From: Candidatus Gastranaerophilales bacterium | GTDB lineage: Bacteria; Cyanobacteriota; Vampirovibrionia; Gastranaerophilales; Gastranaerophilaceae | NCBI GenBank assembly: GCA_944325625.1 | Contig: CALVAP010000015.1 | Location: 1-64,000 of the forward strand | Reading direction: 5' to 3' | DNA length: 64,000 nt | Part shown: one piece after another, positions 4,134-45,330 of the stretch | Numbering within the stretch: the first letter of the stretch is position 1 | How the letters are laid out: every line of letters begins with the position of its first letter | Notes under the pieces: generated by a model | Told to the model about the DNA's origin: nothing | The model's input: the letters and a program-made list of their open reading frames with translations, nothing else | The model's database searches: none | Translations under genes and position numbers: made by a program

Positions 4134-5188
4134 TGAAGAACGAATCAAGAAACAGAATGACATTTGAAAGGCTAAAATATTACAGACACCTTGGTGGTGG
4201 CGCAATTGAATGTTTGATAAGCAGGTTTTCAAAGAACCCAAAACCGTTATGTTTCTCTCTGATGGTAACGAGTAAGTGTAATTGTAATTGTGATTTTTGT
4301 TTTTGGAAACATAAAAAAGAGAATGATGATATGTCTTGTGAAGAAATTACAAGACTTTTAACGGAAGCCGGAAAAATGGGCTATATGGATAGTATTCTAT
4401 GGGGTGGCGAGCCGCTTTTAAGACAAGACTTTACAGAAATTTGTAAGGCTTCTCATGATGCAGGACTTTATACTAAGATTGCAACGAATGGTTGGTTTTT
4501 GGAAACAAATCCGGGATTTGGGCAGTATACGGATTTGATGTTTGTATCATTAGATGCAATAGGAAAAGCGCACGATGATATTCGTCATATGCCGGGTATA
4601 TGTGATAAAGTAATGAGCGGGATTGAATATCACAAAATTCATTCGCCCAAAATGAGAATCTACGTTTGTTGCACCGTATCAACGCAAACTAATTTTGAGC
4701 AAATTAAAGAAGTAGCTCAATATTGCAAGGATGCTGATATTTTATTGTATTTTACGGTAAATAAAGCTGCATCAAGACCCGAAGAAGCTCAAAATGTTGT
4801 GGAAACAGAACTTGAAAATGAGCAGTTGTCAGAAATATTTGTTAAGATTAAGGAGCTTAAAAAACAAGGTTATCCGATAAGAAACTCGTATTATTTTATG
4901 GATTATATTATCAACAAAAAAACTTATTACGAATGTCATTGGCCAAGAATAGCTACGGTAATATATTCAAACGGGGAAATGCTAAGGTGCTATGACAGAA
5001 AACCATTCATTAGTGTTAAGGGCAGAGCGTTGAAGGAAGTTATTAAAGACCCATTGTTCATAGAAACGGTTAATAAATGTAAAGATTGCAAATTAGCATG
5101 TGTAGGAAATTATGCACTTGATGCATCGGGACTGTGGAAGATGGAATGGCCTGCAATTAAATCCCTAATGGAAATTGCTATAACTTAA
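4133..5188 (+). CDS. Radical SAM protein with C-terminal cysteine cluster
   Basis: C49, C53 and C56 form the CxxxCxxC [4Fe-4S] site of radical SAM enzymes (context SKCNCNCDFCFWKHK). GGEPLLRQDF follows as the SAM-binding GGEP motif. Near the end, C316, C319 and C323 (CKDCKLAC) resemble a shortened SPASM auxiliary-cluster region. The ATG overlaps the preceding stop codon and the next gene starts ten bases downstream after AAGGAGAAGG, so it sits firmly in the operon. A role in modifying a lipid, sugar or peptide of the surface polysaccharide pathway is possible; the substrate is unknown. Confidence 0.85.
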   Translation: MKNESRNRMTFERLKYYRHLGGGAIECLISRFSKNPKPLCFSLMVTSKCNCNCDFCFWKHKKENDDMSCEEITRLLTEAGKMGYMDSILWGGEPLLRQDFTEICKASHDAGLYTKIATNGWFLETNPGFGQYTDLMFVSLDAIGKAHDDIRHMPGICDKVMSGIEYHKIHSPKMRIYVCCTVSTQTNFEQIKEVAQYCKDADILLYFTVNKAASRPEEAQNVVETELENEQLSEIFVKIKELKKQGYPIRNSYYFMDYIINKKTYYECHWPRIATVIYSNGEMLRCYDRKPFISVKGRALKEVIKDPLFIETVNKCKDCKLACVGNYALDASGLWKMEWPAIKSLMEIAIT

Positions 5189-24879: not shown

Positions 24880-25578
24880 CTATTGTAAAAAATCTTGCCA
24901 GTAATTTTTCCCACTTTGATCAGGGTTGATATTTAAAGCGGCATAATGTGCGCAACCAAATCCAAGGTAGGCGATGCCATGAGCTGGCTGATTAAATGAA
25001 CATCGATTTAGGCTTCCAGAATCTTTTTCAGGTTGAAGTTTGTTATCAGATGTTATTATGAATGTAAATAAATCATATCCGAGCTTATTCGGACCTCTTG
25101 AAGTCCCATTTGTATCTACATAATATCTGCCTTCGTAGTAGTTAATTCCTCCTGTCCATATTGATATTCCATTAGGAAGCATGATTGTTTTTTGAGTGAA
25201 TGCATCCGCATCTATATGAGCACCATTTTTACCATTCAGAACTTTGTATTCTTTATTATCCTCCCATCGCCTGTTACCAGAGCAGATTATATAATGTCCA
25301 TCACATATTCTCGCATCCTTAAAGTATTTAGCAAAATCTTCTATTTGCTTTGTAGCTTTTTCTTGGTTTCTTTCTTTCACATAGTCTTCGTGGGGCAAAA
25401 TGCCGTCAGCGAGCATGTTTTGGTGTGCATTCATTAGCAGTGAGTATGCTTTTTTAAACTGGACTTCCAACGTTTTCTTTTGCAATTTGCTTACGAGCGT
25501 GGGTAGTGTCAACACTGCAATAATGCCTATAATGCTCAATGTTATTAGTACTTCAGAAATAGTAAAAGCTTTTTTCAT
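24880..25578 (-). CDS. Pilin-like secreted protein with class III (prepilin) leader
   Basis: MKKA precedes FTISEVLITLSIIGIIAVLT, a prepilin-type processing site with Ala instead of Gly at -1 and Glu at +5, followed by the hydrophobic N-terminal helix. The globular part carries D-T-N-G-T-S-R-G-P-N-K-L-G-Y-D-L-F-T-F, the motif shared with the two other pilin-like genes here, and four cysteines in two pairs (CDGHYIIC and near the end). It would be processed by a prepilin peptidase and exported by a type II/IV-pilus-like machine, neither of which is in the window. Divergent from an XRE regulator 92 bases away. Confidence 0.85.
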   Translation of the reverse strand: MKKAFTISEVLITLSIIGIIAVLTLPTLVSKLQKKTLEVQFKKAYSLLMNAHQNMLADGILPHEDYVKERNQEKATKQIEDFAKYFKDARICDGHYIICSGNRRWEDNKEYKVLNGKNGAHIDADAFTQKTIMLPNGISIWTGGINYYEGRYYVDTNGTSRGPNKLGYDLFTFIITSDNKLQPEKDSGSLNRCSFNQPAHGIAYLGFGCAHYAALNINPDQSGKNYWQDFLQ

Positions 25579-30401: not shown

Positions 30402-31106
30402 CTACCAAGGGTAATTGGGTGGAATTTTCCAACCATTCATCTGGATTGCAGCTCCGCAGGATGCTCCACTGTAAAGTGAATTTGTTTTGTTGCAATCTTT
30501 CTCGAGTATTGTTTCAACAGTCTTGAAATTGCCCGGATTTCTCATAATCAGTTTGTTTTTATTGATTTGAAATGAAAATATATCTTTGCCATAGGTATTT
30601 GGGTTCTTTGTTCCGTTTAAGTCCACGTATAATATTGGTTCAGGATTTGCCCAACCAGTCATATCTATTTGGGCAATCATTCCATTGTTAAACTGAATAA
30701 TATTTTCCCAGCTGTAATTGTATGTGTAACCTCTTGACACCTCGTTTCCTGTTACATCGTATCTGGGACAACGATATCCGCCAGAGCAGTGTCTGACTTG
30801 CTCTCTTGAAATGTAGCTGTATTTTGCGTCTTTAAAGTAGGGGGTAATGTGATTTGCTACAGCCTCTCTGTAGTTATTTATGGACAAATTAGGGTTTGGG
30901 ATATCCCATTCGCTAATTGGACCATTGTCATTTATTGACTCGTTGATTCCTTGTGAAAGCATTGAAAAAGCTTGTTTTAGCCGAACCTCTGTTAGGTGTT
31001 TATTATATTTTGATATTAGATTTGGTATTGTCAAAGCTGCTATAACTCCTACTATTGCAAGAGTTATCAGAGTTTCAGAAAGAGTAAATGCTTTATTCTG
31101 TTTCAT
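30402..31106 (-). CDS. Pilin-like secreted protein with class III (prepilin) leader
   Basis: MKQNKA precedes FTLSETLITLAIVGVIAALT: Ala at -1, Glu at +5, then the hydrophobic helix. The globular part has VDLNGTKNPNTYGKDIFSFQI, the same D-x-N-G-x3-P-N-x2-G-x-D-x-F-x-F motif as the genes at 24880 and 44403, a cysteine pair (HCSGGYRC), a second pair near the end, and the tail NGWKIPPNYPW. ATG at 31106 is preferred because GAGG lies five bases upstream; a GTG at 31112 overlaps that site. Divergent from an XRE regulator and convergent with trpB. Confidence 0.85.
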   Translation of the reverse strand: MKQNKAFTLSETLITLAIVGVIAALTIPNLISKYNKHLTEVRLKQAFSMLSQGINESINDNGPISEWDIPNPNLSINNYREAVANHITPYFKDAKYSYISREQVRHCSGGYRCPRYDVTGNEVSRGYTYNYSWENIIQFNNGMIAQIDMTGWANPEPILYVDLNGTKNPNTYGKDIFSFQINKNKLIMRNPGNFKTVETILEKDCNKTNSLYSGASCGAAIQMNGWKIPPNYPW

Positions 31107-44354: not shown

Positions 44355-44384
44355 AATGCGAAAGTTTAGAAAAACTTTCGCATT
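44355..44384 (-). terminator. Hairpin downstream of the third pilin gene
   Basis: AATGCGAAAGTTT and AAACTTTCGCATT form a perfect 13-base stem with a four-base loop, 18 bases beyond the pilin stop. The T run on the minus strand is poor, so termination is likely but not typical. Confidence 0.55.
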
Positions 44385-44402: not shown

Positions 44403-45202
44403 TTAATAGTTCATCGCCCCTTCTTCAAGCACCCGACCGGTGCATTTTGCTGCTTCGCCCCCCCAAATGTTTTTTCCATCTCTATTAACAATCTCAGTGG
44501 TACAGAGTGGTGAACTCGGGTTATTGTTCCAGTAGTCGGGATCATAGCCCTGATATTTAGCATATAATTTTGAGCCATAAGGCATAACAGTACCTTGCGC
44601 TACACCGTTTTGGTTATATGCTGCTATCTCAAATTCAAAAATATCTCTACCCCACTGATTAGGACCTTTTTTGCCGTTGATATCAGTTGTAATAAAGGGA
44701 CCATGATATCCCCACGCCATTCCGTCCGCAGTAACAAAAACTTGGGACTCTGTACTTAGTATTGGACCTCCGTTTTCATTTAACTCAACACAATCTTCCC
44801 AGTTGTTGCTATTACAAGTTTTAACAACTTTCATATATTTATTTATAATAATGGGCCAATTTTTTACCGAATCATCATAGTGATCTAGGTTATCTATTAA
44901 TTGTTCTTCATCATGTATAGCCAAAGATATGACATTAGAAACAGTAGAATAGGCTTTTTTAAGTCCAGTAACATAAGGATGTTTTTGATACTTAGAAACA
45001 AGAGTAGGGATAGTCATAGCAGCAATGACACCGATAATGGTTAAAGTGATAAGAGTTTCAGCCAAGGTAAAAGCACGCTTAGTGTGATGCCCAAAAAGCC
45101 TAAAAGCCTTATTAGAAGCTAACTTCTGGGGAGGGGGGGGGCGCTTAGCGGCACAGTTTGTGCGATTTCGACATTTTTAACTATGTAGCTGTCAAAATTC
45201 AT
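44403..45202 (-). CDS. Phase-variable pilin-like secreted protein, out of frame in this sequence (G9 tract)
   Basis: The pilin frame reads K-R-A then FTLAETLITLTIIGVIAAMT (Ala at -1, Glu at +5), four cysteines and TDINGKKGPNQWGRDIFEFEI. In that frame the only start codon (TTG 45065) lies after the processing site, so it cannot make a prepilin. ATG 45202 has an excellent site (GGAGG, nine bases upstream) but is out of frame. The two frames are joined by a tract of nine Gs at 45133-45141: ten Gs would give one continuous 266-codon ORF with a 44-residue proline-rich leader. Probably a slipped-strand ON/OFF switch, here OFF; a sequencing indel is the alternative. Confidence 0.8.
45133..45141 (-). 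repeat. Homopolymeric G9 tract, likely phase-variation switch
   Basis: Nine Gs on the plus strand (Cs in the coding strand), separated by one A from four more (45128-45131). It is exceptional in this AT-rich window and lies exactly where the start frame and the pilin frame must be joined. Gain of one base or loss of two restores the frame. Confidence 0.75.
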
Positions 45203-45330
45203 AAAATATTGCCTCCTATAATTATGTACATATCCAACATATATGATTTTACAAAATTATGGAATAAATTGCAATAAATTTTACAGAAACTTGGTGGGGT
45301 AGATTGCAAATTAAGGTATCAAAAATAAAA

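Follow-up and report, generated by a model that had tools for sequence, protein, structure and literature searches.

How does a cell read a gene whose start codon and protein-coding body lie in different frames? This question is raised by a type IV pilin-like gene on the minus strand of the window, i.e., the whole stretch of 64,000 nucleotides analyzed here, which belongs to contig C15 of a 1.70-Mb genome in 17 contigs (label G000; the own genome below). The gene has the following parts:

45212 to 45217, minus strand: Shine-Dalgarno sequence AGGAGG of the leader open reading frame (ORF), within a 5' region common to about 12 paralogues
45142 to 45202, minus strand: leader codons 5' of the tract, MNFDSYIVKNVEIAQTVPLS, with the start ATG at 45202
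45133 to 45141, minus strand: homopolymer tract, the putative switch, C9 on the coding strand (G9 on the plus strand)
45119 to 45202, minus strand: ORF of the OFF-state peptide, MNFDSYIVKNVEIAQTVPLSAPPLPRS plus a stop codon, at which the ATG frame ends
45072 to 45127, minus strand: basic remainder of the leader, read in the pilin frame (...RLFGHHTKRA) as far as the A/F site predicted for prepilin peptidase
44403 to 45071, minus strand: pilin-like body, FTLAETLITLTIIGVIAAMTIPTLV..., 222 amino acids plus stop
44357 to 44382, minus strand: inverted repeat TGCGAAAGTTT...AAACTTTCGCA 3' of the stop codon, read directly from the sequence, a possible terminator

An earlier note on this DNA had described a Shine-Dalgarno sequence and an ATG that read into nine identical bases, a pilin frame one base out of step, and the lack of a start codon in that frame, leaving the gene OFF as given. 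These statements hold. AGGAGG lies at 45217 to 45212 ahead of the ATG, which reads into C9 at 45141 to 45133; FTLAE begins 131 nt (2 mod 3) from the ATG, which puts the pilin frame (KRAFTLAETLITLTIIGVIAAMTIPTLV...) out of register with the ATG frame by one base; and the window pilin frame, from the stop that precedes it down to FTLAE (KCRNRTNCAAKRPPPPQKLASNKAFRLFGHHTKRA), is free of ATG, GTG, and TTG, the TTG at 45065 being the L codon of FTLAE itself. With a leader frame that stops soon after the tract and a pilin frame without a start, the assembled gene is OFF. The note had further proposed that either ten or seven bases would join the halves into a 266-codon ORF, which is correct for ten; seven bases join them too but give 265 codons. 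The tract is also part of a longer C-rich run interrupted by a single T (C9-T-C4, with the T at 45132 and CCCC at 45131 to 45128).

Both the family model and the predicted fold identify the body as a prepilin. It scores 21.7 bits against TIGR02532 (prepilin-type cleavage/methylation domain; cutoff, 16.3) and 20.9 bits against PF07963 (Pfam N_methyl), just below the cutoff of 21.2, and its N-terminal cleavage/methylation motif carries Glu at +5 and Ala at -1, where Gly is usual. The AlphaFold2 model of the body (mean pLDDT, 83.6) has a helix at 6 to 57 followed by a beta-rich head; a Foldseek search of the PDB gave no significant fold match, the best being the gonococcal pilin 2hi2 (E = 0.86; probability, 0.21). 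Secretion/pilus ATPases of family PF00437 are present. Pilins without a run are also encoded in the window (25042 to 25575 and 30912 to 31094), and these have ordinary short leaders, e.g., MKQNKA/F.

The window gene is one OFF copy among about 14 tract-bearing pilin-like genes of its own genome. When G/C runs of at least nine bases were counted, which is the threshold of PhasomeIt (PMC5953494), 16 were seen against 0.35 (independent bases) to 1.0 (first-order Markov) expected, and 14 of the 16 sit in leaders of type IV pilin-like genes. Run lengths across these 14 loci are 9 to 13; the window tract, C9 within the coding region, is at the short end, most paralogues having C11 to C13. Ten of the 14 genes, the window gene included, have a common leader (MNFDSYIVKNVEIAQTVPLS or near-identical) preceded by TATAGGAGGCAATATTTTATGAA..., which differs by few substitutions ahead of the other members, while the remaining four have other leaders, two of C type and two of G type. 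At each of the 14 loci, the tract as assembled leaves the start and the pilin frame unjoined (P = 0.003 if one-third were expected to be ON), and the two wrong frames, phase 1 and phase 2, have roughly equal shares. The flanking sequence is identical at five loci (CTAAGCTG[n]AGAAGTT), where n is 12, 12, 13, 13, and 13, and length changes between identical flanks are what DNA slippage makes. The common-leader ATG is in frame with the pilin body in two tractless family members, at C4:19429 and C1:184455.

Since its tract is short for the family and broken by a T, the window copy may be a slow switch or one almost fixed in the OFF state. A further common-leader copy, at C4:219966 (L325; G000:C4:219500-221000), has the interrupted run C6-T-C5 and is also OFF, its pilin ORF being intact and out of frame. 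Initiation at an alternative downstream start was considered and rejected, as most own-genome loci are without ATG, GTG, or TTG in the pilin frame after the tract and none has one with a Shine-Dalgarno sequence. One of the tract loci, L006 (G000:C7:63000-73000, about 4300 to 5170, minus strand), encodes a pilin-like protein (AFSIAEAMMTLLIFSIALA) with a G11 leader and an apparent GTG start and is OFF; its C-terminal region (...FFDDRKTCPDGWKAV...) is unrelated and by eye resembles a phage tail-collar type sequence. The sole own-genome runs of at least nine bases outside pilin leaders, at G000:C4:178889-178898 and G000:C16:36641-36649 (L004 and L011), look intergenic by eye.

Judged from their substitution ratios, the OFF genes are under purifying selection and are not dead. 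The bodies of the OFF paralogues have diverged by about 30% at the protein level, with intact ORFs and a median omega of 0.27, and the window body gives omega values of 0.23 to 0.41 against its paralogues (row L014 excluded). In the 20 leader codons before the run, the ratio of nonsynonymous to synonymous rates among paralogues is 0.12, and the leader is therefore translated in the ATG frame. Given that the ratios are low on both sides of the run, both halves are selected as protein, and these two frames can be joined only by a change in tract length (or by a frameshift). Rows L014 and L019 of the selection table were disregarded because a neighboring paralogue had been picked and L019 duplicates L016; the conclusion is independent of both.

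Similar genes are spread among relatives. A run of C9 or longer shortly before FTLAE was found in 42 of 383 genomes of the same family (9 of 41 genera), compared with 2 for a reversed control pattern. Among the matches listed in a scan of GTDB contigs, the named organisms are Candidatus Gastranaerophilales or Melainabacteria MAGs, and a record labeled "Fusobacterium sp. CAG:439" belongs in the same family; the arrangement may occur more widely than in the matches listed. The exact leader pattern had no match in the GTDB contigs, a set that may omit the own genome or very near records. Pilin genes with a C10 or G10 leader number in the dozens in genomes of relatives, and many further runs are G10 on the coding strand of other pilin genes with unrelated poly-Gly leaders. 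The stretches sampled from relatives were chosen around pilins, although much less so for G229:C2, G023:C4, and G091:C2 (the whole leading part of the contig). Within 240 kb of G229 not chosen for tracts, pilin leaders account for 10 of 14 runs of at least eight bases, and on contig C4 of G023 they account for 10 of 10; extrapolated from the 240-kb stretch, the 2.2-Mb G229 genome would hold very roughly 130 G/C runs. By strict motif, pilin-like genes number 27 in the own genome and up to 169 in G229. Counts of 101 to 169 were obtained in genomes of about 2 Mb (G012, G141, G315, and G229); G012, which is of another genus, has 106 such genes, and the C-tract scan had no match in it.

The earlier note had suggested counting tract lengths in related genomes. 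There they are not uniform (9, 10, 11, and 12 occur), and length predicts phase. Of the 117 loci sampled in relatives, with starts assigned by Shine-Dalgarno sequence plus ATG, 91 have a run of 10, and 86 of these lack one base to be in frame; with a run of 11 the gene is ON at 7 of 9 loci, and with a run of 12 at 0 of 3. Altogether, 13 of the 117 copies are ON. In G023, very similar leaders carry G10 in an OFF gene and G11 in an ON gene (L327 and L326, respectively), and neighboring paralogues with the same leader peptide have G10 and G12 (L330 and L329), the comparison being among paralogues.

Taken together, these observations are probably best explained by slipped-strand phase variation of an OFF-biased, multigene repertoire of type IV pilin-like proteins, with the switch placed in the leader. 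The contingency switch proposed in the earlier note thus gains support from paralogue tracts of 9 to 13 bases, their length polymorphism, the presence of both wrong frames, selection, and the relatives. Each gene has its own Shine-Dalgarno sequence, start codon, and leader (about 40 to 45 codons in the window family, shorter in relatives) with an internal homopolymer, G or C on the coding strand depending on the lineage. Replication slippage would lengthen or shorten the tract by one base; of every three lengths, only one joins the leader to the pilin frame, and at the others translation ends soon past the tract. In the ON state, prepilin peptidase would cut off the leader together with its variable poly-Pro or poly-Gly run, and since the run precedes the predicted cleavage site, the mature pilin should be unaffected by tract length. 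As switches of this kind would be independent, OFF-biased, and from a dozen up to dozens in number, each cell would make a different small, random subset of pilins. The tracts are presumably hypermutable and the switching reversible, and the repertoire may function in surface or antigenic variation.

The rarity of ON copies (0 of 14 and 13 of 117) weighs against this reading and means that selection or a mutational optimum must favor OFF; under slipped-strand switching, tracts would tend toward a mutational optimum that selection holds OFF, leaving each pilin ON in few cells. Two MutS-family proteins are present, so mismatch repair is not obviously lost, which counts against phase variation and leaves loss of mismatch repair unsupported as its cause. 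The lengths in genus g7 (C10 and phase 2 in 71 of 80 C-type loci) are likewise narrower than expected if tracts drifted freely, and the short, interrupted tract of the window copy is a further point against.

The narrow lengths in g7 bear on the alternative that survives best, namely programmed recoding at a slippery tract, in which RNA polymerase adds a base or the ribosome slips by -1, every cell makes some fraction of product from the phase-2 sequence, and phase 2 is the functional state. We consider this explanation unlikely, and we are just as doubtful of its corollary that whole clades make dozens of pilins only by recoding at a fixed C10 or G10, with a low random output set at the RNA level. 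Its main attraction is that phase 2 dominates over phase 1 in relatives (58/76; 74/80 at the C-type loci of g7, of which 71 are exactly C10; and 96/116 with a called start; P of about 1e-9), in C-type and G-type leaders alike and at tract lengths of 9, 10, and 11, including g54, where the modal length is 9 and the phase is again 2. Two g7 genes in which the tract is broken to CCCTCCCCCC (L321, G373:C3; L322, G354:C109) are also in phase 2, and the pilin ORF in G373 is intact. The single conserved frame relation that is nearly attained in g7 is nevertheless absent from the own genome, where phases 1 and 2 are similar in number and where neither a -1 shift nor a +1 insertion would rescue phase 1. 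Very similar leaders differ in tract length, giving in-frame copies, and both CCC and GGG runs are used. By eye, no conserved hairpin or Shine-Dalgarno-like stimulator is apparent 3' of the tract; AGAAG-TTAG-CTTCT follows it at several own-genome loci and is absent from L015, L016, and the relatives.

Similar numbers of the two wrong frames are expected under slippage but not from a fixed recoding signal, and poly-C as well as poly-G tracts on the coding strand fit a DNA-level property. On the strength of the mixed phases in the own genome, the occurrence of runs of either base, C or G, and the length variants that are in frame, we favor slipped-strand switching over recoding. Known programmed transcriptional slippage and -1 frameshifting (reviewed in PMC5009743) also join two overlapping frames at a homopolymer, with slippage usually at A or T runs (PMC3711429), whereas the runs described here are G/C, vary in length, occur in both wrong frames, and have in-frame relatives. 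Interrupted tracts in out-of-frame genes could mean that these genes became frozen OFF a short time ago, or could hint at recoding at the RNA level.

It is highly improbable that the OFF copies are silent cassettes that act mainly as gene-conversion donors for the tractless copies that are in frame, like pilS for pilE, with the tract serving to inactivate the donor or to promote recombination. Near-identical 5' ends, C-termini conserved around a variable center, and the two permanently in-frame family members would suit such an exchange, but every OFF copy keeps a Shine-Dalgarno sequence, an ATG, and a leader under purifying selection, none of which silent donors need, and in-frame tract copies exist in relatives. 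There is hardly any chance that assembly or base-calling error (the true tract being in frame) or simple decay to pseudogenes accounts for the data, since, error-prone as homopolymers are and much as C20 to C52 runs at contig ends (G144, G162, and G336) resemble sequencing artifacts, errors would be required at all 14 loci and in both directions, C10 recurs in many relatives' contigs that bear the names of short-read assemblers (NODE_, k127/k141), purifying selection acts on the ORFs, which are intact, and the T inside the window run makes a miscount there less likely. Contigs of G144, G162, G336, and G254 (e.g., L127 and L128) that end at or near C20 to C52 just 5' of pilin genes are probably assembly breaks or poly-G read artifacts at tracts, and these runs were discounted.

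The tract loci of Campylobacter jejuni are mostly glycan-modifying and other surface genes. Strain NCTC11168 has 29 poly-G/C loci of 7 or more (PMC4965091; for glycan-modifying and surface loci compare, in part, PMC8437040), and it resembles the present case in having many G/C tracts per genome whose in-frame length sets ON or OFF; in contrast, most tracts of one genome here serve a single protein family and show a strong OFF-by-one bias. Neisseria has 15 to 19 poly-G tracts per genome, among them the contingency loci pilC1 and pilC2 (PMC5953494), in which a G/C homopolymer within the reading frame likewise flips a type IV pilus component ON and OFF. A pilus-associated protein is encoded by the one or two pilC genes, whereas the present switches would act on pilin-like subunits, from a dozen copies up to dozens, with the tract ahead of the predicted prepilin cleavage site. 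The silent pilS donors of pilE and the multicopy opa genes, which switch via CTTCT pentamers (PMC5953494), also encode a set of variant surface proteins, few of them expressed together, although in the present family a Shine-Dalgarno sequence, a start codon, and a homopolymer of its own make every gene a full translation unit.

Homopolymer switching of pilus genes (Neisseria pilC) and large poly-G/C phasomes are thus already known; what is new is the host group and the concentration on pilin-like subunits, as well as the position of the tracts within the leader, their occurrence in either orientation, the copy number, and the OFF-by-one register. In the open-licence literature, we found no earlier report of phase variation in Gastranaerophilales or Melainabacteria, the match for Melainabacteria being a flagellin survey. 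If our reading is right, the pilin phasome of these uncultured gut bacteria related to cyanobacteria exceeds textbook sizes, with about 14 tract pilin genes in the own genome and very roughly 130 tracts in one relative, mostly pilin leaders where sampled, compared with the 15 to 19 of Neisseria and the 29 of C. jejuni. It would also suggest why such small genomes retain 27 to 169 pilin-like genes and would offer a testable model of single-cell surface variation (related to immunity, phage, or adhesion) in commensals. Annotation pipelines may label tract pilins pseudogenes or miss their starts. Two stretches of G229, L352 (G229:C2:220001-240000) and L345 (G229:C2:80001-100000), have C10/G10 runs in genes that do not encode pilins, one of them glycosyltransferase-like by eye and the other encoding a repeat-like protein of 303 amino acids; these may be other phase-variable genes.
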